Positions 36,038-48,442 of a DNA stretch of 64,000 nucleotides are shown in pieces. Positions within the stretch are counted from its first letter, which is position 1, and every line of letters starts with the position of its first letter. The notes under the pieces are model-generated. The model worked only from the letters and a program-made list of their open reading frames with translations, was not told the DNA's origin and searched no databases. Origin of the DNA: Cellulophaga sp. HaHaR_3_176 (GTDB lineage: Bacteria > Bacteroidota > Bacteroidia > Flavobacteriales > Flavobacteriaceae); assembly GCF_019021925.1 (NCBI RefSeq), contig NZ_CP058990.1, positions 2,692,001-2,756,000 on the forward strand, written 5' to 3'. The translations under genes were made by a program, and so were the position numbers.

Positions 36038-37417
36038 ATGGAAAAGTATTGGAAACTTCATAAACTTCCAATTTTAATAGTACTTATCAGTGCTATATGC
36101 TATAATCTTTTAGCTTTTAATTTTCAAAGAGATGAGTTCATTAAACTAATATCCATTTTTCTTGGATTATCAATTTTATGCTATAAACTCATTGAATTTG
36201 AAAAGCTAAATTTTAGGTTTCTTTTATTTTCTGGAATAATATTTAGAATTATTTTTCTTTTAATTCTTCCCAATTTATCGCAAGATTATTTTCGATTTAT
36301 ATGGGATGGAGAGCTACTATCTAATGGTTTAAATCCATATTTAAAAACACCCAATCAACTTATTGAAGAATCTAATTTAATAATTGATAACGTCATTAAA
36401 CTATATAATGGCATGGGAAGCTTAAGTGCCAAACACTATAGCAATTACCCTCCTCTAAATCAAATCATTTTTGCCATATCAGTATTTATTGGCGGCAAAA
36501 GTATTGCGGGTTCTGTAGTTGTAATGCGCCTCTTTATTATTTCTGCAGATATCGGAATTGTACTTATTGGTCGTAAATTATTAAAAAAAATAAATCGAGC
36601 TCCTCACCTTATTTTCTGGTATTTTTTAAATCCATTAGTTATTGTTGAACTTACCGGAAATCTTCATTTTGAAGGGGTAATGCTTTTCTTTTTTATATGG
36701 TCATTGTACTTAATCTCTAAAAATAATTGGAAAATTGGAGGTGTAATTTACGCCTTATCTATTTCCGTAAAATTGGTCCCACTAGTCTTTCTTCCTCTTT
36801 TCTTAAAACATTTAGGCTTCAAAAAAAGCATTTTTTTTTATAGCATTATAGGCCTAACAACATTGACTTTAATAGCCCCTTTCTATTCTTCTGAATTTAT
36901 ACATAATTATTCTAAAACGATTGGATTATGGTTTTCTAATTTTGAATTTAATTCCAGTATTTATAATTTAGTTAAAGAAATAGCCGTAAGTCATTTTGAT
37001 GCTAAACCTTGGGAGCTTATAAAAGTGTATGGCAAAATAACTCCTATCATCGTTATTACTTCTGTTTTATTATTTACGTTTTTTAAAGTAGATAGAAATA
37101 TAACAACATTAATAACAGCAATGCTTTGGGTACTTTCTATTTACTACTTTACATCAGCAACCGTACACCCTTGGTATATTATTTTTCTAATACTACTTAC
37201 CGTTTTTACAAATTACAGATATTCTATCGTATGGTCTTTAGCTGTTGTACTTAGTTATTGGGCATATTCAAATAGTGATTATAAAGAACATTTAGGAATA
37301 TTGCTTTTTGAATATATTGCAGTATATGGTTTTATGTTTTACGAAATATTTAAGCTTCGTAACAAAAAGCACGTTTTTTGTAAAAAAAATACCATAAATG
37401 ATGTCAAGTCAAATTAA
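36038..37417 (+). CDS. GT-C polyprenyl-phosphate-sugar-dependent mannosyltransferase-like protein
   Basis: A 459-residue protein with about 11 membrane helices. The first large loop carries LSQDYFRFIWDGELLSNGLN, the acidic D-Y-x-R-x-x-W-D-G signature of GT-C glycosyltransferases, and NYPPLNQIIFA. These are typical of lipid-linked-mannose transferases of the MptB/PIG-M kind. It would use the polyprenyl-phosphate sugar made by the Dpm1-like enzyme on the outer face of the inner membrane. The sugar and acceptor are unknown. It is the last gene of the operon starting at 30426, and a promoter for the arginine operon begins 4 bp after its stop. Confidence 0.83.
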   Translation: MEKYWKLHKLPILIVLISAICYNLLAFNFQRDEFIKLISIFLGLSILCYKLIEFEKLNFRFLLFSGIIFRIIFLLILPNLSQDYFRFIWDGELLSNGLNPYLKTPNQLIEESNLIIDNVIKLYNGMGSLSAKHYSNYPPLNQIIFAISVFIGGKSIAGSVVVMRLFIISADIGIVLIGRKLLKKINRAPHLIFWYFLNPLVIVELTGNLHFEGVMLFFFIWSLYLISKNNWKIGGVIYALSISVKLVPLVFLPLFLKHLGFKKSIFFYSIIGLTTLTLIAPFYSSEFIHNYSKTIGLWFSNFEFNSSIYNLVKEIAVSHFDAKPWELIKVYGKITPIIVITSVLLFTFFKVDRNITTLITAMLWVLSIYYFTSATVHPWYIIFLILLTVFTNYRYSIVWSLAVVLSYWAYSNSDYKEHLGILLFEYIAVYGFMFYEIFKLRNKKHVFCKKNTINDVKSN

Positions 37418-37421
37418 TTTG

Positions 37422-37429
37422 TACTTTTG
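37422..37429 (+). promoter_or_regulatory. -7 promoter element TACTTTTG of the arg/pro operon
   Basis: An exact TAnnTTTG match directly after the GT-C stop. No clear TTTG lies at the -33 distance. Transcription from it would begin around 37435, leaving almost no untranslated leader before the ATG of the leader peptide at 37437. Confidence 0.55.
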
Positions 37430-37436
37430 ATTTATA

Positions 37437-37520
37437 ATGAACAATAAAAATTACATATCTACAACTGACAGGTCTTTCGCACCTGCACGTTCATTTACAC
37501 CTACACGTCGCCGCCCGTAA
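37437..37520 (+). CDS. Arginine/proline-rich leader peptide of the arg/pro operon
   Basis: A 27-codon ORF. It has five Arg (codons 12, 18, 24, 25, 26) and three Pro (16, 22, 27) and ends T-P-T-R-R-R-P-stop. It lies just before an operon with eight arginine and three proline genes, the classic layout of a ribosome-stalling leader peptide. In plain terms, a ribosome short of charged tRNA-Arg or tRNA-Pro would stall near the end, changing folding of the RNA downstream. Codon use is AGG, CGT, CGT, CGC, CGC for Arg. A near-consensus -7 element is 8 bases upstream. The coding potential is inferred from composition and context; no homologue search was possible. Confidence 0.75.
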   Translation: MNNKNYISTTDRSFAPARSFTPTRRRP

Positions 37521-37559
37521 GGGTGTGTCATATTATGGAAATAGGTGAGTCCATTTCCG
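37469..37559 (+). promoter_or_regulatory. Alternative hairpins over and after the arg/pro leader (attenuator-like region)
   Basis: Several small stems compete. CAGGT (37469-37473) pairs with ACCTG (37481-37485). ACACCT (37497-37502) pairs with GGGTGT (37521-37526) around the Arg codons and stop. GGAAAT (37537-37542) pairs with ATTTCC (37553-37558). The segment CACCT (37498-37502, also 37480-37484) can instead pair with AGGTG (37543-37547), excluding the others. There is no U-tract after the last stem, so the switch may work on translation or Rho access rather than an intrinsic terminator. Confidence 0.45.
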
Positions 37560-37613
37560 CAGAAAACAAAACGATATTTCAATTAACTTTTACTTTTAAA
37601 CATAAAATTGGCA

Positions 37614-38252
37614 ATGGAAATACTGATTGCTAACGAATCACATTTTAAATACGCTGAAGTGATTTGCGACACTATAGCCGAATCTGCAAAAATAAGAGGC
37701 ACTGGTATTGCTAGGCGCACCCCTGAATACGTTTGTAAAAAATTAGAAAACGGGAATGCTGTTATAGCTCTAGAAGATGGTCAATTTGCTGGCTTCTGCT
37801 ACATTGAAGTTTGGGGACATGAAAAATTTGTTGCCAATTCAGGACTAATTGTACACCCCGATTTTAGAGATAGAGGGTTAGCTAGACAAATTAAAGAACG
37901 AGTTTTTAATTTATCAAGAGAGAAATTTCCTGACGCTAAAATTTTCGGTATTACTACTGGTTTAGCTGTCATGAAAATAAATTACGAACTAGGCTATAAA
38001 CCTACCACTTTTTCAGAATTAACTGATGATCCTGATTTTTGGAAAGGATGCCAAACGTGCAAAAATTTTGATATTCTCACACGTACAGAGCGTAAAATGT
38101 GCCTTTGTACCGGCATGTTATATGATCCAAATGCACAGATAAAGAAAAAGAATATCGAAGTGCAACCTGAAAAAGAAAAATTGAACACAAAAGCTTTTAA
38201 AAGATTAAAAAGCATAAAAGAATCACTATTCTTAATAAAAAAAGAAAAATGA
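37614..38252 (+). CDS. GNAT N-acetyltransferase, candidate N-acylglutamate synthase
   Basis: A 212-residue protein from ATG 37614 (a TTG two codons earlier is possible). The GNAT acetyl-CoA site is LIVHPDFRDRGLARQIKERV. The C-terminal part carries Cys146, Cys149, Cys163 and Cys165 in a C-x2-C-x13-C-x-C array, which looks like a metal-binding knuckle, followed by a Lys-rich tail. As first gene of the arginine operon it is the best candidate to acylate glutamate, the entry step, because no ArgJ or classical ArgA is present. Whether it transfers acetyl or succinyl cannot be seen. It overlaps argG by ATGA. The leader-peptide region lies directly upstream. Confidence 0.8.
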   Translation: MEILIANESHFKYAEVICDTIAESAKIRGTGIARRTPEYVCKKLENGNAVIALEDGQFAGFCYIEVWGHEKFVANSGLIVHPDFRDRGLARQIKERVFNLSREKFPDAKIFGITTGLAVMKINYELGYKPTTFSELTDDPDFWKGCQTCKNFDILTRTERKMCLCTGMLYDPNAQIKKKNIEVQPEKEKLNTKAFKRLKSIKESLFLIKKEK

Positions 38253-39439
38253 AAAAATTAGTTTTAGCCTACAGTGGCGGATTAGACACATCATACTGTG
38301 CAAAATATTTATCAAAAGACAAAGGTTTTGAAGTACACGCTGTAAGTGTAAATACTGGTGGCTTTTCAACTGAAGAAATTGCCAATATAAAAGAAAAGTC
38401 TTTACAACTAGGTGCTTCATCATATACATCAATTGATGCTGTACAAACATTTTATGATAAAGTAGTTAAATTCTTAATTTTCGGAAATGTTCTTAAAAAC
38501 AACACATACCCTTTATCAGTAAGTGCTGAACGTATTGTACAGGCTATAGAAATTGTAAACTACGCTAAAAAGGTAGGAGCTAGTTATATTGCTCATGGTA
38601 GCACAGGTGCAGGAAATGATCAAGTACGTTTTGACATGATTTTTCAAATTATAGCTCCAGAAATAGAAATCATTACACCTATTAGAGATAATAAATTATC
38701 TAGAGAAACAGAAATTGCATACTTAAAAGAAAATGGAATTGATTACCCTTGGGAAAAAGCAAAATATTCTATTAACAGAGGTCTTTGGGGAACATCAGTT
38801 GGTGGTGAAGAAACGCTAACGTCTAACAAAGCATTGCCAGACAGCGCATATCCTAGTCAACTACAAGAAAAGGAGCCTATAGATGTTAAACTAACTTTCG
38901 AAAAAGGAGAATTAGTAGCTGTTAACGGTGTTAAAGATAAGCCTGTTGCTAATATAGAAAAACTTGAAGCTATGGCATCTAAATATGCTATTGGTAGAGA
39001 TATTCATGTTGGTGACACTATTATTGGTACAAAAGGTAGAGTTGGTTTTGAAGCTGCTGCTGCATTAATCACAATTAAAGCACATCATTTATTAGAGAAA
39101 CACACACTTACAAAATGGCAACAATACCAAAAAGAACAACAAGGTAATTTTTACGGAATGTTGTTACATGAAGGTAATTATTTAGATGAAGTGATGAGAA
39201 ACATTGAAGCCTTCTTAACCGATACTCAAAAAAATGTTTCTGGAGATGTTTTCTTAAGCCTATACCCTTTCCAATTCAGATTAAATGGAATAGCTTCTGA
39301 ACATGATTTAATGACTGATGCTTTTGGTAGTTATGGTGAAGAAAACAAAGGATGGTCTGCAACTGATGCTAAAGGTTTTATAAAAATACTTTCAAATTCA
39401 GGCAGAATATACAATCACGTAAACGGTAATAATGATTAA
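38249..39439 (+). CDS. argG: Argininosuccinate synthase
   Basis: A 396-residue enzyme that joins citrulline and aspartate using ATP. The N-terminal LVLAYSGGLDTSYCAKYL is the PP-loop ATP site of the family, followed by AHGSTGAGNDQVRFD and the central SINRGLWGTSVGGEE citrulline/aspartate region. Length fits the usual ~400 residues. It overlaps the GNAT gene by 4 bases and argC by 8. Placing this late-pathway enzyme near the front is normal for flavobacterial arginine operons. Confidence 0.96.
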   Translation: MKKLVLAYSGGLDTSYCAKYLSKDKGFEVHAVSVNTGGFSTEEIANIKEKSLQLGASSYTSIDAVQTFYDKVVKFLIFGNVLKNNTYPLSVSAERIVQAIEIVNYAKKVGASYIAHGSTGAGNDQVRFDMIFQIIAPEIEIITPIRDNKLSRETEIAYLKENGIDYPWEKAKYSINRGLWGTSVGGEETLTSNKALPDSAYPSQLQEKEPIDVKLTFEKGELVAVNGVKDKPVANIEKLEAMASKYAIGRDIHVGDTIIGTKGRVGFEAAAALITIKAHHLLEKHTLTKWQQYQKEQQGNFYGMLLHEGNYLDEVMRNIEAFLTDTQKNVSGDVFLSLYPFQFRLNGIASEHDLMTDAFGSYGEENKGWSATDAKGFIKILSNSGRIYNHVNGNND

Positions 39440-40406
39440 AGTAGGGATAATTGGAGGATCTGGTTACACAGGTGGTGAGCTAATTAGAATATTATTACAT
39501 CACCCTGAAGTAACTATCGATTTTGTTTTCAGCACTACAAGAGCTGGAAAAAAAATTACAAATGCACATCCTGATTTATTGGGTGTTACTGATATTGCTT
39601 TTACAGGCGATGTAAATTTAAATGTAGACGTTGTTTTTCTTTGCTTAGGTCACGGGAATTCTACTTCGTTTTTAAAAGAACACAACTTTTCTGCAACAAC
39701 TAAAATCGTTGACTTGAGTAATGATTTTAGATTAAATGTAGATGCTGTTTTAAATGGAAAAGAGTTTATTTACGGTTTACCTGAAACAAATAAAAAACAA
39801 ATAAAAGAGGCTAATTATATTGCAAACCCTGGTTGTTTTGCTACAGCTATTCAACTAGCATTATTACCATTAGCTAAACATAATTTATTACAAAATGATG
39901 TTCATATTAATGCAGTAACAGGTAGTACTGGAGCTGGTGTTAGTCCATCTGCAACATCACATTTTAGCTGGCGAAACAATAATGTATCTTGGTATAAACC
40001 TTTTACGCATCAACATTTAGGCGAAATAGGCGAAAGTTTATCTTCTTATAAAAACGATGTTGGTGAATTAAATTTTCTTCCTAACAGGGGTAATTTTACT
40101 AGAGGTATATTAGCTACAGCATATACAAAATTTGACAAAAGTATAGAGGAGGCAGTAGCTTTATATAATGATTTTTATAAAGATGCTTTATTTACTCAAA
40201 TATCAGAGCAAGAAATAAATTTAAAACAGGTTGTAAACACCAATCAGTGCCATATTCATTTGCACAAGCATAATAATAAACTTTTAATTACTTCTGCTAT
40301 AGATAACCTTTTAAAAGGCGCATCTGGTCAAGCGGTTCAAAACATGAATTTGATGTTTGGTTTTGATGAAGGAACTGGACTTAATTTAAAAGCAGGAGTA
40401 TTTTAG
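39432..40406 (+). CDS. argC: N-acetyl-gamma-glutamyl-phosphate reductase
   Basis: A 324-residue NADPH-dependent dehydrogenase that reduces N-acylglutamyl phosphate to the semialdehyde. GIIGGSGYTGGELIRILLHH is the Rossmann NADP site, the active Cys lies in ANPGCFATAIQLAL, and TGSTGAGVSP plus GNFTRGILAT complete the catalytic region. The family length is ~320-350. The start lies 8 bases inside argG. The acyl group may be acetyl or succinyl (see the carbamoyltransferase entry). Confidence 0.95.
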   Translation: MIKVGIIGGSGYTGGELIRILLHHPEVTIDFVFSTTRAGKKITNAHPDLLGVTDIAFTGDVNLNVDVVFLCLGHGNSTSFLKEHNFSATTKIVDLSNDFRLNVDAVLNGKEFIYGLPETNKKQIKEANYIANPGCFATAIQLALLPLAKHNLLQNDVHINAVTGSTGAGVSPSATSHFSWRNNNVSWYKPFTHQHLGEIGESLSSYKNDVGELNFLPNRGNFTRGILATAYTKFDKSIEEAVALYNDFYKDALFTQISEQEINLKQVVNTNQCHIHLHKHNNKLLITSAIDNLLKGASGQAVQNMNLMFGFDEGTGLNLKAGVF

Positions 40407-40440
40407 GATACTCAAAAAACAACCTATTAAAAATATAGTA

Positions 40441-41241
40441 ATGAAAATAGCAATCATAGGTGCTGGAAATTTAGGGTTAGCAATAGCTAAAGGAGTTTTA
40501 AACTCTAACGGTGCTACATCTATGTTTTTAACCAAACGAAATACTACTGACATACAAAAATTTGAAAAATTTGGTAATGTAACTGTAACTACTGATAATA
40601 GAGAGGCTGTTACAAAATCTGATATTTTAATTTTTGCGGTACAACCCGCTCAATTTGAGCAAATACTTGAAGACACAAAAGATTTACTGAACGAAAAACA
40701 CGTAATTATTTCTACAATAACTGGTGTTGTAATTTCTCAAATAGAAAAAATAATAGGTTCAGAACACCATATCATACGAAGCATGCCAAATACAGCAATA
40801 TCTGTAGGCAAATCTATGACTTGTATTTGCAGCAATGAAAAAGGTAAAAAACGTATTGATCTAGCAAAAGCTATTTTTAATAGAATGGGTCATTCTATGG
40901 AAATTCCTGAAAATCAAATGCAAGCAGCAACTGTAATTTGCGCTAGTGGAGTTGCATTTTGGATGCGCTTGATTAGAGCAACAACACAAGGTGCTATACA
41001 ATTAGGTTTTGATGCTAAAGAAGCTCAAGAGCTAGCTATGTACACCTGTAATGGTGCTGCTAGTTTACTAATAGAATCAGGAAACCATCCAGAAGCTGAA
41101 ATAGATAGAGTTACAACACCTAGAGGTTGTACTATTCAAGGTTTAAATGAAATGGAGCATCAAGGCTTAAGTTCTTCTTTGATACAAGGAATTATTGCTT
41201 CATACGATAAGATTAGTGAAATTAAAAAAGGAGAATTATGA
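40441..41241 (+). CDS. proC: Pyrroline-5-carboxylate reductase
   Basis: A 266-residue enzyme for the last step of proline synthesis (pyrroline-5-carboxylate to proline). IAIIGAGNLGLAIAKGVL is the NADPH site, ILIFAVQPAQFEQIL follows, IIRSMPNTAISVGKSMT is the substrate-site strand, and VTTPRGCTIQGLNEMEHQG is the C-terminal signature with the T-P-x-G-x-T pattern. It interrupts the arginine genes, lying between argC and argD. It overlaps argD by 4 bases. Confidence 0.94.
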   Translation: MKIAIIGAGNLGLAIAKGVLNSNGATSMFLTKRNTTDIQKFEKFGNVTVTTDNREAVTKSDILIFAVQPAQFEQILEDTKDLLNEKHVIISTITGVVISQIEKIIGSEHHIIRSMPNTAISVGKSMTCICSNEKGKKRIDLAKAIFNRMGHSMEIPENQMQAATVICASGVAFWMRLIRATTQGAIQLGFDAKEAQELAMYTCNGAASLLIESGNHPEAEIDRVTTPRGCTIQGLNEMEHQGLSSSLIQGIIASYDKISEIKKGEL

Positions 41242-42362
41242 ATCTGTTTGATGTTTACCCTTTATACAATGTAACACCTGTTTCTGCAAAAGGAATAATA
41301 GTTACAGATGATAAAAATCAAGAATATTTAGATTTTTATGGTGGTCATGGTGTTATTTCTATTGGACACACACACCCTCATTATGTAAAAAAGTTAGAAG
41401 ACCAATTACATAAAATTGGTTTTTACAGTAACGCAATTCAAAACCCATTACAAGTAGAATTAGCTACTAAGCTAGGTCAGCTTTCTGGTTGTGAAGACTA
41501 TAATTTATTTTTATGCAGTTCTGGAGCCGAAGCAAATGAAAATGCTTTAAAAATGGCTTCATTTGTTACAGGTAAATCAAAAATTATTTCTTTTCAAAAT
41601 AGTTTTCATGGTAGAACATCGGCTGCTGTTGCTGCAACAGATAATGAAAAAATTAACGCCCCAATAAACAAACAACAAAAAGTATCTTTTTTACCTATTG
41701 GTAATATAAGTGCTTTTACTGCTGAAATAGAAAAAGGAGATGCTTGTGCGGTTATATTAGAACCTATACAAGGTGTTGGTGGTTTAGATGAGCCAACAAC
41801 AGAATTTTATCAAGAAATAGCAAAAATAGCAAAGCAAAATGGTGTTATTTTAATTGCTGACGAAGTACAGTGTGGCTATGGTAGAAGTGGTAAATTTTTC
41901 GGCTTTCAGCATCATAACATTCAACCAGATATTATTAGTGTTGCAAAAGGCATGGGTAACGGTTTTCCTGTAGGCGGTATTCTAATTCATGAAAGTATTA
42001 AAGCTAGTTACGGTATGTTAGGTACAACCTTTGGTGGTAATCACTTAGCATGTGTTGCTTCCCTTGCTGTTTTAGAGGTTATCGACAAAGAAAATCTCAT
42101 CAAAAATGCTGCTGAAATTGGCGAATACTTTAAAGAATGTGCCAGTACTATTCCACAAGTAAAAAAAATAAAAGGTAGAGGCTTAATGCTTGGTTTAGAA
42201 TTTGATTTTGAAGTTGCTGATTTGCGTAAAAAATTAATATATGACCAACATATTTTTACTGGTGGCGCAATGAATAAAAAATTACTTAGAATTTTACCTG
42301 CTTTAAACATTACAAAACAAGATATTGATTTGTTTTTTGAAGCCCTTAAAAAAGAATTATAG
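41238..42362 (+). CDS. argD: Acetylornithine/succinylornithine aminotransferase
   Basis: A 374-residue class III PLP aminotransferase that converts N-acylglutamate semialdehyde and glutamate to N-acylornithine. FLCSSGAEANENALKMA and SFHGRTSAAVAATDN bind PLP and phosphate, LIADEVQCGYGRSGKFF holds the PLP-contacting Asp, and the Schiff-base Lys is in ISVAKGMGNGFPVGG. It overlaps proC by 4 bases and its TAG stop shares the G of the GTG start of proA. Acyl-group preference cannot be decided from sequence. Confidence 0.94.
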   Translation: MNLFDVYPLYNVTPVSAKGIIVTDDKNQEYLDFYGGHGVISIGHTHPHYVKKLEDQLHKIGFYSNAIQNPLQVELATKLGQLSGCEDYNLFLCSSGAEANENALKMASFVTGKSKIISFQNSFHGRTSAAVAATDNEKINAPINKQQKVSFLPIGNISAFTAEIEKGDACAVILEPIQGVGGLDEPTTEFYQEIAKIAKQNGVILIADEVQCGYGRSGKFFGFQHHNIQPDIISVAKGMGNGFPVGGILIHESIKASYGMLGTTFGGNHLACVASLAVLEVIDKENLIKNAAEIGEYFKECASTIPQVKKIKGRGLMLGLEFDFEVADLRKKLIYDQHIFTGGAMNKKLLRILPALNITKQDIDLFFEALKKEL

Positions 42363-43558
42363 TGAGCTTAACGCTAAACATAGAAAAGAGAAACAAAGTC
42401 TTAAAAAGAATGGCTGAATTGGTTGCTTTTGAAAAAGAGGCAATACTTTCTGCTAATAAAAAAGACATTGAAAATTATACTGGCAATGACCTTGCCATGG
42501 CCGATAGGCTTAAAGTTGATGATGCCAAGGTTGAAGGCATGATTTCATCCTTAGAACAATTGGCTAGTCAGACAGACCCTTTAGGTGTAGAGCGATTTGC
42601 TTTTACGCATGAAAACGGAATTAATGTAAGTAACAAAACAGCACCTTTTGGCACTGTTTGTATTATTTATGAATCAAGACCAGATGTAACTATTGAAGCA
42701 GCTGGTATTGCTTTTAAATCTGGAAATAAAATTTTACTAAAAGGGGGTAAAGAATCTTTACAAAGTAACTTAGCACTCGTTAGTCTTTGGCATAAAGCTT
42801 TAGAAGAAAATGATTGCTCTGACGAATGGGTAACCTACCTTCAATTTAACAGGGAACAAACGCAAGAATTTTTGCAAAATCCTACTCAAAAAATTGACCT
42901 AATAGTACCGCGTGGTGGCGAAAAATTAATTGCATTCACTAAAAAACATGCCACTTGCCCTGTAATCATAAGCGGTAGAGGTAATAATTTTGTATATGTT
43001 GATGCTGAAGCCGATTTAGAAATGGCTATTTCTATCATTATTAATGCTAAAACAACTAAAATATCAGCTTGTAACGCATTAGACAAAGTTTTAATTGCTG
43101 CTGATATGCCTCGCAAACATGAGTTTCTTCAGCACTTAATTCAAGAGTTAAAAAAGAGTGACGTAACTGTTTATACAGACACTCATTTTTCCGCAATGGA
43201 AGGCACTACCCCTATTGAAAGTGAAAATATTTGGTTCGAAGAATTTTTAGATTATAAAATTGTTATTGGCCAAGCTGCCAGTTTAGAAGATGCTATTCTT
43301 TCTATAAATAAATATGGAGGAGGACATTCTGCTGCAATCATTACCTCTAATACAAATAGTGCTCAAATCTTTTTAGAGTCTGTAGATTCTGCTGCCGTTT
43401 ACCATAATGCATCTACCAGATTCACTGATGGATTTCAATTTGGTTTAGGAGGAGAACTTGCTATTAGCACTGACAAACTACATCAAAGAGGCCCAATTGG
43501 CTTACAACATTTAGTAACTAACAAATGGTATGTATTAGGTAATGGTCAAATAAGGTAA
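42362..43558 (+). CDS. proA: Glutamate-5-semialdehyde dehydrogenase
   Basis: A 398-residue ALDH-fold reductase that turns glutamyl-5-phosphate to glutamate semialdehyde, using NADPH. APFGTVCIIYESRPDVTIEA, GNKILLKGGKESLQSN and VPRGGEKLI match the nucleotide and phosphate sites; the active Cys is in TTKISACNALDKVLI, and GGGHSAAIIT is present. It starts at GTG overlapping the argD stop by one base. With proB it makes the precursor that ProC turns to proline; the same operon thus makes both amino acids. Confidence 0.95.
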   Translation: MSLTLNIEKRNKVLKRMAELVAFEKEAILSANKKDIENYTGNDLAMADRLKVDDAKVEGMISSLEQLASQTDPLGVERFAFTHENGINVSNKTAPFGTVCIIYESRPDVTIEAAGIAFKSGNKILLKGGKESLQSNLALVSLWHKALEENDCSDEWVTYLQFNREQTQEFLQNPTQKIDLIVPRGGEKLIAFTKKHATCPVIISGRGNNFVYVDAEADLEMAISIIINAKTTKISACNALDKVLIAADMPRKHEFLQHLIQELKKSDVTVYTDTHFSAMEGTTPIESENIWFEEFLDYKIVIGQAASLEDAILSINKYGGGHSAAIITSNTNSAQIFLESVDSAAVYHNASTRFTDGFQFGLGGELAISTDKLHQRGPIGLQHLVTNKWYVLGNGQIR

Positions 43559-43560
43559 CT

Positions 43561-44322
43561 ATGAAGAAAAAAAGAATTTTACTAAAAGTTGGCACCAATA
43601 CATTAACAAGAGAAACCAATCATATATCTAGAGGAAAAATAGAAGATATAGGAAGACAAATAGAAAGTTTAAAAAACGAATACGAGTTTATAATTGTAAG
43701 CTCTGGAGCTATTGCTGCTGCACGCCAATTTGTAAAGTTAGAGCACAATGGAGAAGATATTAATATAAAACAAGCACTAGCATCAATAGGACAACCTCAT
43801 CTAATGCGAATTTTTCAAGAGAACTTTAGAGAGTTAGGCCTGTTTACTTCTCAATGTCTATTATCTTATTCTGATTTTGAAAATCCGAAATCAAAATCTA
43901 ACATAAAAAACACGATTGATGTTTTAGTAGCAAATAACTTTATACCAATTATTAACGAAAATGACACAGTTGCTACTGATGAAATTAAGTTTGGTGATAA
44001 TGATAAACTTGCAGCATTAACAGCAGCTTTATTAGAAGTAGATTTATTAATGATTGCGACTAATACTGATGGTGTTTACACTAAAAAAACTCTTGAAGGC
44101 AACATGCCTGAAACCATAAAAGAGGTTATTGATATGAATGATTTAATAACTGAAGTTGGCGATAATATATCGTCTCACGGAACTGGCGGTATGCAGTCTA
44201 AAATAGAAGCAGCTACTATTGCAAAAGATGCAGGTATTGAAACTTGGATTCTAAATGGTTTAAAAGATAATTTTATAACTGACGCTATGCATGGCAAAAG
44301 TAATTTCACAAAAATAAAGTAA
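43561..44322 (+). CDS. proB: Glutamate 5-kinase without PUA domain
   Basis: A 253-residue amino-acid-kinase-fold enzyme that phosphorylates glutamate, the first step of proline synthesis. KKRILLKVGTNTLTR starts the phosphate loop, IIVSSGAIAAARQ, IINENDTVATDEIKFGDND and MIATNTDGVYTK line the active site, and GTGGMQSKIEAA is the closing loop. E. coli ProB is ~367 residues with a C-terminal PUA domain that is absent here, as in some other bacteria. In E. coli that domain is not essential for activity but modulates it. It is 2 bp after proA and 27 bp before argF'. Confidence 0.93.
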   Translation: MKKKRILLKVGTNTLTRETNHISRGKIEDIGRQIESLKNEYEFIIVSSGAIAAARQFVKLEHNGEDINIKQALASIGQPHLMRIFQENFRELGLFTSQCLLSYSDFENPKSKSNIKNTIDVLVANNFIPIINENDTVATDEIKFGDNDKLAALTAALLEVDLLMIATNTDGVYTKKTLEGNMPETIKEVIDMNDLITEVGDNISSHGTGGMQSKIEAATIAKDAGIETWILNGLKDNFITDAMHGKSNFTKIK

Positions 44323-44349
44323 GCCTTTTAGGTTTAAAAAGAGCACAAA

Positions 44350-45288
44350 ATGAAACATTACACTTCAATACAAGATATCGACTCATTACCAACATGGGTA
44401 AATGATGCAAAAAATTTAAAAGCTAACCCGTTACAAGCAAAAAGCTTAGGACAAGGAAAAACTATTTGTTTGTTATTTTTTAACAATAGCCTTAGAACGC
44501 GCTTGAGCACACAAAAGGCAGCGATGAATTTAGGCCTTGAAGTAATGATAATGAATTTTGGTAGCGAAGGTTGGGCTATTGAATTTGAAGATGGAACTGT
44601 AATGGACCAAGGTACTTCTGAACATATTAAAGAAGCCGCACAAGTTGTTTCTCAATATTGTGACATTGTTGCTATTCGTGCTTTTGCATCTTTGACAGAT
44701 AAAGTAAAAGATGAAGCAGAACTTGTTTTAAATGGTTTTAAAAAATACGCCAGTATTCCTGTTGTAAATATGGAAAGCTCCGTAGGACATCCTTTACAGG
44801 CATTAGCTGACGCTATTACTTTAGGTGAACAAAATATAAAAACCAAGCCTAAAGTTGTCCTTTCATGGGCACCGCATCCAAAAGCTCTACCACATGCTGT
44901 AGCAAATTCTTTTACTGAAATGATGTTAAAGCAAGATGCTGATTTTGTAATTACTCATCCTGAAGGGTATGAGTTAAACCCTGAAATCACTAAAGATGCA
45001 GCAATTGAATACAACCAAAGTAAAGCATTAGAAAATGCTGACTTTGTTTATGTAAAAAACTGGAGTAACTATAAAAATTACGGTCAAATTATCAATCAAG
45101 ATACTGATTGGATGATGACTAAAGATAAATTAGGGCATGCTAAATTCATGCATTGCCTTCCTGTTCGTAGAAATGTGGTTGTAGAAGATGCCGTTTTAGA
45201 TAGCGATCAATCATTAGTTATTGAGCAAGCAAATAACAGAACATACGCAGCACAAATAGTGCTTAAAAAAATTCTTGAAAAGCTATGA
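44350..45288 (+). CDS. argF': N-acyl-L-ornithine carbamoyltransferase (AOTCase/SOTCase type)
   Basis: A 312-residue carbamoyltransferase of the kind that acts on N-acylated ornithine. The carbamoyl-phosphate loop is FFNNSLRTRLSTQK rather than the S-T-R-T-R of classical ArgF, SVGHPLQALADAITL is the H-P-x-Q site, and FMHCLPVRRN is the ornithine side. The sequence follows Bacteroides fragilis SOTCase closely with the same numbering. The specificity residue (Pro90 in SOTCase, Glu92 in Xanthomonas AOTCase, as I recall) is Ser90 here, in DQGTSEH. Thus acetyl or succinyl preference is open. It overlaps argB by 4 bases. Confidence 0.92.
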   Translation: MKHYTSIQDIDSLPTWVNDAKNLKANPLQAKSLGQGKTICLLFFNNSLRTRLSTQKAAMNLGLEVMIMNFGSEGWAIEFEDGTVMDQGTSEHIKEAAQVVSQYCDIVAIRAFASLTDKVKDEAELVLNGFKKYASIPVVNMESSVGHPLQALADAITLGEQNIKTKPKVVLSWAPHPKALPHAVANSFTEMMLKQDADFVITHPEGYELNPEITKDAAIEYNQSKALENADFVYVKNWSNYKNYGQIINQDTDWMMTKDKLGHAKFMHCLPVRRNVVVEDAVLDSDQSLVIEQANNRTYAAQIVLKKILEKL

Positions 45289-46064
45289 AACCTAAATTAT
45301 CAGTCGTAAAAATTGGTGGAAATGTTATTGAAAACGATAAAGAACTTTCTAAATTTTTAACCTTATTTTCAAAATTAGAAGAACCTAAAATTTTGGTACA
45401 CGGTGGCGGAAAATTAGCAACTCAACTAGCCTATAAATTAGGTATAGAATCTAAACTTGTAAACGGAAGAAGAATTACCGACGACAAAAGCATCGATATA
45501 ATTACTATGGTTTATGGTGGTTTAGCAAACAAAACTATAGTTGCTAAATTACAAGCCAACAAATGTAATGCTATAGGCTTAAGTGGTGCCGATGGCGATG
45601 CTATACAAGCACACAAGCGCCCTGTAAAACAAATTGATTACGGTTTTGTTGGTGATATTGATGGAATAAATACTAGCTTAATTGATTCATTAATAAAAGT
45701 TAATTTAACCCCTGTTTTCTGTGCCTTATCACATGATGGAAAAGGACAAATGTTAAATACAAATGCCGATACAATTGCTTCTGAAATTGCAATAGGAATG
45801 GGTGATTTATATGAGACTACATTATATTATTGTTTTGAAAAAAAAGGAGTCCTTTTAGATATTAAAGATGAACACTCTGTAGTAAAACATATTAATTCAG
45901 AAAAATATAAAGAATTACTAGATCAAAAAATCATTGCTGATGGTATGCTTCCTAAACTAGAAAACTGTTATCATGCATTACATAATAATGTAAATAAAGT
46001 TTGCCTTGGCGATATAGAAATGATTAAAAACAATACTACTTTATTTACAACCATAACACTATAA
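45285..46064 (+). CDS. argB: Acetylglutamate (N-acylglutamate) kinase
   Basis: A 259-residue amino-acid-kinase-fold enzyme that phosphorylates N-acylglutamate. The motifs are SVVKIGGNVIEND, ILVHGGGKLATQLA, GLANKTIVAKLQANKCNAIG and LNTNADTIASEIAIGM. There is no N-terminal extension of the kind linked to arginine feedback control in hexameric enzymes, so control may rest on the leader peptide; that is inference. It overlaps argF' by 4 bases and lies 2 bp before argE. Confidence 0.94.
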   Translation: MKPKLSVVKIGGNVIENDKELSKFLTLFSKLEEPKILVHGGGKLATQLAYKLGIESKLVNGRRITDDKSIDIITMVYGGLANKTIVAKLQANKCNAIGLSGADGDAIQAHKRPVKQIDYGFVGDIDGINTSLIDSLIKVNLTPVFCALSHDGKGQMLNTNADTIASEIAIGMGDLYETTLYYCFEKKGVLLDIKDEHSVVKHINSEKYKELLDQKIIADGMLPKLENCYHALHNNVNKVCLGDIEMIKNNTTLFTTITL

Positions 46065-46066
46065 AT

Positions 46067-47131
46067 ATGGAACAACAAAAATTAACGGATAAAGCAATTG
46101 AATTACTAAAACAGTTAATTAGTATTCAATCTTTTTCAAGCGAAGAAGATAAAACAGCAGAAGCTATACAAGATTGGTTTACTTCTTTTGATATTCCATT
46201 TACTAGAGATAACAACAACGTCTATGCAAAAAATAAGTTTTGGGATGATAGTAAGCCCACTTTACTTTTAAATTCACATCACGACACTGTTAAACCAAAC
46301 CAAGCATATACTAAAGATCCTTTTCTTCCACATATTGAAGATGGCAAACTATACGGTTTAGGCAGTAATGATGCTGGTGGTTGCCTTGTTTCTCTATTGG
46401 CTACATTTTCGCATTTTTATGCACAAGAAAATTTAAATCATAATATTTTGATGGTAGCTTCTGCTGAAGAAGAAAGTGCTGGCAAAAATAGCCTTCGTGG
46501 TTTATTACCTAGTTTACCAAATATTAATGTAGCCATTGTTGGCGAGCCTACATTAATGAACTTAGCAATTGCAGAAAAAGGATTAATTGTTTTTGATGCC
46601 GTAGTTAAAGGCACACCATCACACGCAGCACACCCTAATGAGAACAACTCTATATACAATACTATTGAAGTTTTAGAATGGTTTAAAAACTATAAATTCG
46701 AAAAAACATCAGAAGCATTAGGTGATGTAAAACTTACCGTAACTCAAATAAAAGCTGGTAGCCAACACAATGTAGTACCTTCGCAAGTGGATTTAGTGAT
46801 TGATGTTCGAGTAAACGACAGTTATTCGAATAAAGAAATTGCAGATTTATTAAAAGCAGAAGCACCTTGTTTTTTGCAGGAGCGTGGATTAAAGCTAAAT
46901 TCATCTAAAATTGATAAAGATCATGCTTTGGTACAATCAGGCATTATACTGGGGCGAGAAACATACGGTTCTCCTACGCTTTCTGACCAAGCAGCATTAA
47001 CATGTCAGTCTTTAAAATTAGGCCCTGGAGATAGCACTAGATCACATTCTGCAGATGAATATATACATGTTCATGAAATTGAAGAGGGTATCGACTTATA
47101 TATTAAAATATTAAAGGGCTTTTTAAATTAA
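46067..47131 (+). CDS. argE: M20-family deacylase, candidate N-acetylcitrulline/acylornithine deacetylase
   Basis: A 354-residue zinc peptidase-fold enzyme. Metal ligands lie in LLNSHHDTVKP (His), LYGLGSNDAGGCL (Asp) and MVASAEEESAG (Glu pair), with IVGEPTLMN and SRSHSADEYIHVHEIEEGI completing the site. Because the carbamoyltransferase acts on acylated ornithine, the natural substrate is more likely N-acylcitrulline than N-acetylornithine, as in Xanthomonas. It follows argB by 2 bp and precedes argH by 30 bp. Confidence 0.9.
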   Translation: MEQQKLTDKAIELLKQLISIQSFSSEEDKTAEAIQDWFTSFDIPFTRDNNNVYAKNKFWDDSKPTLLLNSHHDTVKPNQAYTKDPFLPHIEDGKLYGLGSNDAGGCLVSLLATFSHFYAQENLNHNILMVASAEEESAGKNSLRGLLPSLPNINVAIVGEPTLMNLAIAEKGLIVFDAVVKGTPSHAAHPNENNSIYNTIEVLEWFKNYKFEKTSEALGDVKLTVTQIKAGSQHNVVPSQVDLVIDVRVNDSYSNKEIADLLKAEAPCFLQERGLKLNSSKIDKDHALVQSGIILGRETYGSPTLSDQAALTCQSLKLGPGDSTRSHSADEYIHVHEIEEGIDLYIKILKGFLN

Positions 47132-47161
47132 ACTTGCCAGTAATTATTAAAAAATACAACT

Positions 47162-48442
47162 ATGAAACTTTGGGATAAAGGTTTTAGCACAGATAAAAAA
47201 ATTGATCATTTTACAGTAGGAAACGATCGTGAATTAGACTTACAATTAGCGAAATATGATGTTATCGCATCAAAAGCACACGCTAAAATGCTAGGTAAAA
47301 TAGGACTACTTACCCAAGCAGAAACAGACGATTTAGTTAGAGAATTAAATGTTATTGCAAAAACTATTGAAAAAGGAGAGTTTATAATTGAAGATTCTTT
47401 TGAAGATATGCACTCTAAAATAGAGTATGTATTAACTGAAAAATTAGGTGATACTGGTAAAAAAATACATACTGCTCGTTCTAGAAATGATCAAGTTTTA
47501 GTTGCAATGCATTTGTATTTAAAAAATGAATTAACAGAGATTAAAAGCGAAACCAAAATTTTGTTTGATTTACTATTAAATCTTGCAGATAAACATAAAA
47601 GTATATTAATACCTGGTTATACTCACTTGCAAATCGCAATGCCATCTTCTTTTGGCTTATGGTTTTCGGCGTATGCTGAAAGTTTAGTTGATGATTTATA
47701 TTTTGTTGATGCTGCTTATAAAATAGCAGATCAAAACCCTTTAGGTAGTGCTGCTGGTTACGGAAGTTCATTTCCTGTCGATAGAGCTTTCACCACTAAA
47801 GAAATGGGTTTTTCTGATTTAAAATATAATGTAGTAGCTGCTCAAATGGGGCGTGGAAAGGTAGAAAAAGCTGCCGCTTTCGGTATAAGCAGCATAGCTT
47901 CTACGCTATCTAAAATGGCAATGGATATCTGTTTATATATGAGTCAAAATTTTAATTTCATCTCTTTTCCTGATGAATTGACTACAGGTTCTAGTATTAT
48001 GCCACACAAAAAAAATCCTGATGTTTTCGAATTAGTTAGAGGTAAGTGTAATAGACTACAAGCGGTTCCAAACCAACTAATGATGATTATAAATAACCTA
48101 CCTAGTGGTTATCATCGCGATTTACAATTGGTAAAAGAAGTAATAGTACCTGCTATACAAGATATAAAAGCATGTATTGAAATATTGACTTTTAGCTTAA
48201 AAGAAATTCGAGTAAACGATACTATTTTAGAAGATCCTAAATATGATTATATTTTTAGCGTAGATACTTTAAATGAATTAGTATTGAGTGGTATACCTTT
48301 TCGTGATGCTTACAAAAAGATGGGCATGGAAATAAATGAAGGTACTTTTTCACCTAAAAGAGATATAAAACATACGCACGAAGGTAGCTTAGGAAATTTG
48401 TGTCTAAATGAAATTCGTAAAAAAATGGATCAAATTATGTAG
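47162..48442 (+). CDS. argH: Argininosuccinate lyase
   Basis: A 426-residue fumarase-superfamily enzyme that splits argininosuccinate to arginine and fumarate. KIHTARSRNDQVLVAMHLYL, PGYTHLQIAMPSSFGLW and the family signature TGSSIMPHKKNPDVFELVR are all present. It is slightly shorter than the common ~460 residues, mainly at the C-terminus. It is the last gene of the operon, followed by a hairpin terminator. Confidence 0.95.
   Translation: MKLWDKGFSTDKKIDHFTVGNDRELDLQLAKYDVIASKAHAKMLGKIGLLTQAETDDLVRELNVIAKTIEKGEFIIEDSFEDMHSKIEYVLTEKLGDTGKKIHTARSRNDQVLVAMHLYLKNELTEIKSETKILFDLLLNLADKHKSILIPGYTHLQIAMPSSFGLWFSAYAESLVDDLYFVDAAYKIADQNPLGSAAGYGSSFPVDRAFTTKEMGFSDLKYNVVAAQMGRGKVEKAAAFGISSIASTLSKMAMDICLYMSQNFNFISFPDELTTGSSIMPHKKNPDVFELVRGKCNRLQAVPNQLMMIINNLPSGYHRDLQLVKEVIVPAIQDIKACIEILTFSLKEIRVNDTILEDPKYDYIFSVDTLNELVLSGIPFRDAYKKMGMEINEGTFSPKRDIKHTHEGSLGNLCLNEIRKKMDQIM

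Follow-up and report, generated by a model that had tools for sequence, protein, structure and literature searches.

A 27-codon open reading frame rich in Arg and Pro codons lies directly before an operon for arginine and proline synthesis in Cellulophaga sp. HaHaR_3_176. The question raised by this locus is whether the frame encodes a leader peptide that controls the operon, which amino acid is sensed, and at which step expression would be changed. The window analysed is the whole 64,000-nucleotide stretch of contig NZ_CP058990.1 (forward strand, positions 2,692,001 to 2,756,000), and coordinates are numbered from its first base. An earlier note on this DNA had proposed an unannotated leader peptide, comparable to those of the his, trp and leu operons, that would control the operon and respond jointly to arginine and proline.

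The leader frame and its conservation

Translation of the frame gave the composition that had been described, with five Arg (residues 12, 18 and 24-26), three Pro (residues 16, 22 and 27) and the C-terminus Arg-Arg-Arg-Pro-stop. The frame is located between a 459-aa upstream ORF, which ends at 37417, and a GNAT-family acetyltransferase gene. Among the 209 ATG-initiated ORFs of 20-45 aa in the six frames of the window, it was the only one with at least five Arg and at least three Pro (1/209), and none of the others ended RR(x)P; this Arg/Pro content and ending are thus more than would be expected by chance. The 27-aa peptide matched no Pfam family. The -7 element reported before the ORF was also confirmed; we take the box TACTTTTG to be a -7 element of the TANNTTTG type. 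If the transcript begins where the box predicts, the leader ORF would be near-leaderless.

Gene annotation downstream placed the ORF before an operon with both arginine and proline genes, as claimed. Eleven genes were found, with GNAT as the first (Table 1). The NCBIfam scores were under the curated cut-off for several operon genes, among them argD, argE and argF', so the names of these genes rest on best match and gene order, and argH (47162-48442) was named by order and resemblance only. The argF' product (44350-45288) was nearer to the solved chains 1js1, 2g7m and 2fg6, presumably the succinylornithine-type transcarbamylase of Bacteroides fragilis, than to ornithine carbamoyltransferases among the matches listed, e.g. 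1a1s. This resemblance suggests an acylated-ornithine route. An Arg_repressor (ArgR) domain was not found in the genome of the window by a search whose control was positive in 9 of 14 genomes, including Bacteroides, which makes the arginine leader a candidate for the main regulator.

Table 1. Features of the leader region and of the operon (positions in the window).
Feature	Coordinates	Strand	Sequence and basis
-7 promoter element	37422..37429	+	TACTTTTG; from sequence; ATG 7 nt downstream
Leader peptide ORF	37437..37520	+	MNNKNYISTTDRSFAPARSFTPTRRRP-stop; from translation; 27 codons + TAA
H0, possible hairpin within ORF	37469..37485	+	CAGGT-ctttcgc-ACCTG; predicted fold; weak
Rival hairpin to H1	37496..37527 (37496-37502 with 37521-37527)	+	Predicted fold of window
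Arg-Arg-Arg codons	37506..37514	+	CGT CGC CGC; last two are the conserved pair
H1 hairpin	37512..37525	+	CGCCC-GUAA-GGGUG; covariation including CGCAC..GUGCG variants; RNAalifold de novo
Linker H1-H2	37526..37536	+	U-rich, G-poor
H2 hairpin	37537..37558	+	GGAAAU-A-GG-[UGAGU]-CC-AUUUCC; conserved UGNGU loop; arms covary
GNAT-family acetyltransferase, operon gene 1	37614..38252	+	ATG 37614; alternative start TTG 37608
argG-argC-proC-argD-proA-proB-argF'-argB-argE-argH	38249..48442	+	Profile matches, gene order

The earlier note had suggested aligning this region in related Flavobacteriaceae. GNAT homologs were taken from 80 contigs, the best 80 among the matches listed, and the named contigs included many of Cellulophaga, Maribacter, Arenibacter, Zobellia, Muricauda and Flagellimonas. 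A leader ORF ending Arg-Pro-stop was found upstream of GNAT in 79 of these best 80 homologous GNAT-arg operons; at the 80th homolog, the contig end leaves 123 nt of upstream sequence. These 79 named loci and the window make up the 80 close leaders. A TAC[A/T]TT box occupied the matching place in the window and in 78 of 79 relatives, and so in 79 of the 80 aligned leaders; locus L062 has TACCTTTG there. The first ATG after the box was in frame, 6-9 nt downstream, in 72/80 aligned leaders; in seven leaders an additional ATG directly adjoins the box, and the leader starts at the following ATG, 8 nt past the box.

Differences by codon position 1/2/3 numbered 288/173/490 in 130 close leader pairs, which are not independent of one another, as against 99/119/72 in a control region downstream in the same comparison. 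CGT and CGC accounted for 310 of 326 Arg codons in the close leaders, compared with AGA at 74 of 138 in 16 genes of the window. The last Arg codon was CGC in 80/80 close leaders and the Pro codon was CCG in all 80. With the ORF retained, its Arg codons kept and changes in excess at third, synonymous positions, codon-level conservation in relatives bears out an unannotated, attenuation-type leader peptide that goes with the arginine operon. A short ORF directly before the operon, a run of cognate codons and synonymous change are the features that mark his- and trp-type leader peptides, and the frame is presumably translated.

Covariance models were used to follow the leader beyond the close relatives. 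Model R1, built from 42 sequences, matched 237 of 397 genomes of the family, which to judge from the named contigs is Flavobacteriaceae, and model R2 matched 250 of 397 at E ≤ 0.001; search filters are stricter above 40 genomes, making these genome counts lower bounds. R2 matches were present in 246 of 266 genomes with a GNAT homolog versus 4 of 131 without (lists compared by eye). Some of those inspected among the 20 GNAT-bearing genomes without a model match have degenerate or different Arg-rich leaders. Loci L173, L174 and L178 carry other Arg-rich frames before GNAT, which use AGA, AGG and CGA codons and lack the H1/H2 unit, ending CFRRRRCRE-stop in two and CVPRRRIRE-stop in one. In a sample of 395 genomes from the phylum, strong matches (E < 1e-8) were obtained in 16, all within Flavobacteriaceae; 18 other genomes matched weakly (E 0.0027-0.0488), and the unit was seen in none of the 14 of these inspected by eye. 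A second R2 match in genome G220 was rejected as another unit, being antisense within a coding region.

The window's own genome has one unit only, R1 finding a single copy at E ≤ 10. TAGGTGWGTCC with one mismatch gave 33 matches in this genome versus 23 in a backwards-read control, and no leader was seen at the 19 inspected of the 32 matches other than the arginine leader.

The 80 close sequences and the decoded model matches together gave 189 distinct loci, selected by the model and by a CG.CG-type-first anchor pattern. L282, L286, L287, L288 and L256 (chance or undecodable) and L258 (without anchor) were left out before decoding. In 130/130 decoded diverged loci the frame ran without a stop for 19 codons or more up to the Arg pair, with a leader start that by eye was sometimes apparently GTG or TTG.

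Two hairpins at and beyond the stop codon

The DNA 3' of the peptide, and through its last codons, was more conserved than the peptide would need. Two hairpins were found here. The 5' arm of H1 consists of the last Arg codon and two bases of the Pro codon, and the stop codon is located in the H1 loop. H1 had 5 bp in 117/171 loci and occurred as CGCCC..GGGUG or CGCAC..GUGCG. The H2 loop was UGAGU in 131 loci, UGUGU in 29 and UGCGU in 12, or 172 of 178, a conservation partly presupposed by a search pattern that itself required G[GA]TGNG. This loop was closed by GG/CC or GA/UC in 177/178 loci, and the arms otherwise vary widely. Of the 189 loci, 11 were without a recognised H2 (leaving 178), 20 were outside the probability run and 18 were outside the linker count.

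For both hairpins in an alignment of 99 sequences, 109 double-changed cells were counted versus a shuffled mean of 20.5 and at most 26 in slid structures, and 95.6% of cells were paired; this alignment (A2) was fitted by a model built with H1 and H2, so the covariation count is tilted toward them. RNAalifold, given MAFFT alignments of 42 close loci and of 24 diverged ones, recovered H1 and H2 without prompting, and the same covarying changes were seen by eye in a MAFFT alignment of 71 sequences. The median predicted probability was 0.95 for H1 over 169 loci and 0.58 for H2.

The competing hairpins described in the earlier note were found in the window, where H1 (predicted probability 0.39) loses to the longer rival hairpin, in which the same G pairs with an earlier part of the ORF (0.61). 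As a general trait this competition did not hold: among the 80 close leaders the rival hairpin exceeded 0.5 in five and H1 in 72. The whole window leader folded no better than its shuffles (z -0.44). An H0 hairpin of different sequence, GUUAUU..AAUAAC, was predicted inside the ORF before the Arg cluster in an alignment of 24 diverged loci, e.g. L198, L209 and L255; by eye, the sequence of its arm recurs close to the GNAT start in some of these loci. Complementarity between H0 and GNAT, seen by eye in some loci, was broken in others and was set aside.

Several candidate roles for the hairpins were rejected. A GNRA tetraloop in H1 does not fit a loop that varies in sequence and size. The H2 loop as a Shine-Dalgarno sequence for 16S rRNA does not agree with the change of GG/CC to GA/UC and the variable middle base. 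For H2 as a palindromic operator of a DNA-binding dimer, the arms vary freely and a non-palindromic centre is kept, and an RNA loop fits better.

A strongly conserved loop with covarying arms, and nucleotide invariance through the last codons, could also indicate a metabolite-binding RNA to which the ORF is incidental. We regard such a riboswitch as highly improbable. The reading frame set by the first ATG past the promoter is kept open and shows the third-position excess, Arg makes up 19.8% of the 10 residues before the Arg pair, upstream of the hairpins (189 leaders), and the structure amounts to two small hairpins only. A search of Rfam 15 gave no match to the leader unit (best E 3.8, unrelated families); window-wide, only a tRNA reached the gathering score.

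Amino acid sensed and step of control

The anchor residues at the 189 loci were RRP in 170 and RRT in six, and in 13 the pair was broken by one residue or shifted; RR at the anchor thus stands in 176/189, under an anchor pattern that favours CGY-CGC. Because the last Arg codon contributes to the structure of H1 as well, its invariance alone is no proof of sensing. The Arg pair and the top of H2 were 33-40 nt apart in 176/178 loci, and the position of the stop codon shifts. It is therefore the Arg codons, not the stop, that seem to be spaced, and a ribosome stalled on the Arg pair and covering H1 is the likely switch position.

Joint control, as proposed in the earlier note, would have the ribosome stall at Arg or Pro codons so that shortage of either amino acid switches the mixed operon on. 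The three Pro in the window peptide agree with this, and Pro is enriched at 14.6% of the 10 residues before RR in the 189 leaders. Operon content was read in 35 loci, with L302 and L332 left out as incomplete; proC is retained in most of these operons, and loss of the terminal Pro was confined to operons without proAB (7/25 versus 0/10 with proAB, p = 0.084). The number of Pro in the 12 residues before RR, however, was independent of the proline genes, with a mean of 1.30 in the 10 operons with proA and proB and 1.28 in the 25 without proA (p = 0.97). In the six RRT loci, the change of the terminal Pro to Thr accompanies a change of an H1 pair from C-G to A-U, which makes the terminal Pro look set by the hairpin, and in L335 this Pro is replaced by Leu. 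Two of the 35 operons (L308 and L309) keep the leader with no pro gene within the 13 kb examined, and the two CFRRRRCRE-stop frames, from genomes lacking the unit, have no Pro near the end. Pro codons are enriched, but they are not conserved in a way tied to the pro genes. Joint sensing of arginine and proline was not borne out, and because the terminal Pro follows H1, the Pro count does not depend on proAB and pro-less operons keep the leader, we consider it unlikely.

To judge from the comparison of sequences, the unit from 37437 to 37558 probably controls the arginine operon that follows it, and combines a leader ORF responsive to arginine with an RNA element of two hairpins. Within this explanation we infer the 5' end, translation, stalling and direction of the response as follows. 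Transcription would start at the ATG or a few bases from it, and a ribosome would enter at the 5' end and follow RNA polymerase. Under a shortage of charged tRNA-Arg for CGY codons, this ribosome would stall while decoding the CGY-CGC pair and would mask the 5' arm of H1, so that H1 cannot form and the polymerase continues. When arginine is ample, the ribosome would get to the stop codon, in the H1 loop or a few codons past it, and leave; H1 would then form, and the unit of H1, U-rich linker and H2 would reduce operon expression. This output most likely acts on elongation of the transcript or on stability of the mRNA; concealment of the first gene's start codon is the less likely route.

A scan that does pick up the genome's his and trp terminators detected no canonical terminator in the arginine leader of the window. 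For want of a strong terminator, the classical output is missing, and the arginine leader does not have the intrinsic terminator with a mutually exclusive antiterminator of the his/trp type. H1 with the U-rich linker nevertheless looks like a weak terminator or pause hairpin, and a miniature intrinsic attenuation would have such a hairpin, or hairpin-stabilised pause, relieved by the ribosome on the Arg pair, with H2 only shaping the response. The linker agrees with this in composition (54% T and 5% G overall, 171 loci) and in length (11-14 nt in 154/171), and the offset of about 11 nt resembles that of the his pause. At least five T followed within 8 nt of H1 in 97/171 loci, and a lenient terminator pattern was passed by 88/189 loci, mostly at H1. 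The window itself fails this pattern, H1 is mostly 5 bp where the genome's own his and trp terminators have 12 and 11 pairs, and the conserved H2 loop would be unexplained. We hold miniature attenuation to be possible, short of probable.

In translational attenuation, the leader would govern folding around the GNAT start codon. In the window, 37608-37615 is predicted to pair with 37626-37633 around the ATG, and in 102 diverged loci folding with a locus's own start region was slightly stronger than with another's (-4.68 versus -3.73 kcal/mol). No such excess was found in the 80 close relatives (-6.60 versus -6.81 kcal/mol), which led to rejection of the start-codon hairpin (H3), and several lineages showed no such hairpin among the loci listed. 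Sequestration of the start codon, as in an ermC-type translational attenuator, is thus predicted in the window by a hairpin that is not conserved. A 3' arm of H2 hiding the GNAT start (ATTTCC with GGAAAT) was likewise rejected, being present in the window and lost in relatives whose GNAT begins ATGAAG or ATGAAA.

In L302-L304 a different gene replaces the usual GNAT, and the leader and both hairpins are kept with the end of H2 at 211, 141 and 102 nt from the next ATG. The retention of the leader without the usual GNAT, together with the start-hairpin test, disfavours a mechanism at the GNAT start codon, and we judge translational attenuation very unlikely. The replacement protein between the leader and argG in L302-L304 has 194-200 aa, belongs to the GNAT family by Pfam in L302 and L303, and is possibly a substitute for the first arginine step.

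Returning to the arginine-responsive leader with its two hairpins, we tentatively suggest a new attenuator class, where stalling of the ribosome at two Arg codons would gate a short pause hairpin. A partner (a protein, RNA polymerase or the ribosome) would read the UGNGU loop of H2 and decide the fate of a 10-kb transcript that has no intrinsic terminator, replacing ArgR in the family.

Comparison with known leaders

Leader peptides for his and trp were read by eye from upstream sequence in the same genome. The his leader, MKNTTTHHHHFYTCFQAR-stop, is unannotated and precedes hisG on the minus strand near 1572000 (L341), with a 12-pair terminator. The trp leader, MKNLTVNTWWWNNLRENA-stop, also unannotated, precedes a trpE-like (chorismate-binding) gene on the minus strand near 397000 (L343), with an 11-pair terminator. 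Both are like the arginine leader in being short ORFs with a cognate-codon run directly before a biosynthetic operon, and in the distance of 6-7 nt that separates the ATG from a preceding -7-like box, which reads TACTTTTA in the his leader and TATCTTTG in the trp leader. The his and trp leaders differ in their terminators with T tracts, in place of which the arginine leader has H1, the U-rich linker and H2. The likeness to such leaders drawn in the earlier note therefore stands for ORF composition and position, but does not extend to a canonical terminator.

Leader peptides before bacterial arginine operons appear rare, to our knowledge. The fungal arginine attenuator peptide is likewise encoded by an arginine-responsive upstream ORF; it is eukaryotic and stalls the ribosome at high arginine through the nascent chain. 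The arginine leader described here is present in 250 of 397 genomes of a large marine family, in the window's case in a genome without an ArgR domain, and is accompanied by a covarying two-hairpin RNA absent from Rfam. The RNA readout appears new and lineage-specific, on an arginine leader peptide that the comparisons make well-supported.

An arginine leader in Flavobacteriaceae was not found among the open-access titles and abstracts listed. The available text of PMC2965389 has no mention of Bacteroidetes or arginine, and that of PMC2864571 none of arginin or argG; no such leader is named in either. Leader-like sORFs and rare leaderless mRNAs are described for Bacteroides in the accessible part of PMC7366714. 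For Flavobacterium psychrophilum, structured 5' regions with clues to leader peptides have been reported, so that attenuation in the family is published in outline, in a report whose main text, as available, names no arginine leader (PMC9723704).

Another parallel is the orf34-speF leader of Salmonella, where, in the text available, ribosome pausing at low arginine alters mRNA folding, with Rho termination, access to the ribosome binding site and RNase G decay as outputs (PMC6386406). Its leader ORF, as given there, has two consecutive Arg codons (PMC6386406), a feature of such a Rho- or RNase-dependent leader that the arginine leader shares. The orf34-speF leader controls ornithine decarboxylase and belongs to an unrelated lineage, and the likeness noted here is one of description. 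What seems to be new is an arginine leader with an H1-linker-H2 unit, which was not found among the open-access titles and abstracts listed or in Rfam; leader attenuation in the family, in outline, and the Arg-pair leader of speF were known. With his and trp leaders and their ordinary terminators in the same genome, the unusual output of the arginine leader can be compared side by side with theirs in one organism.
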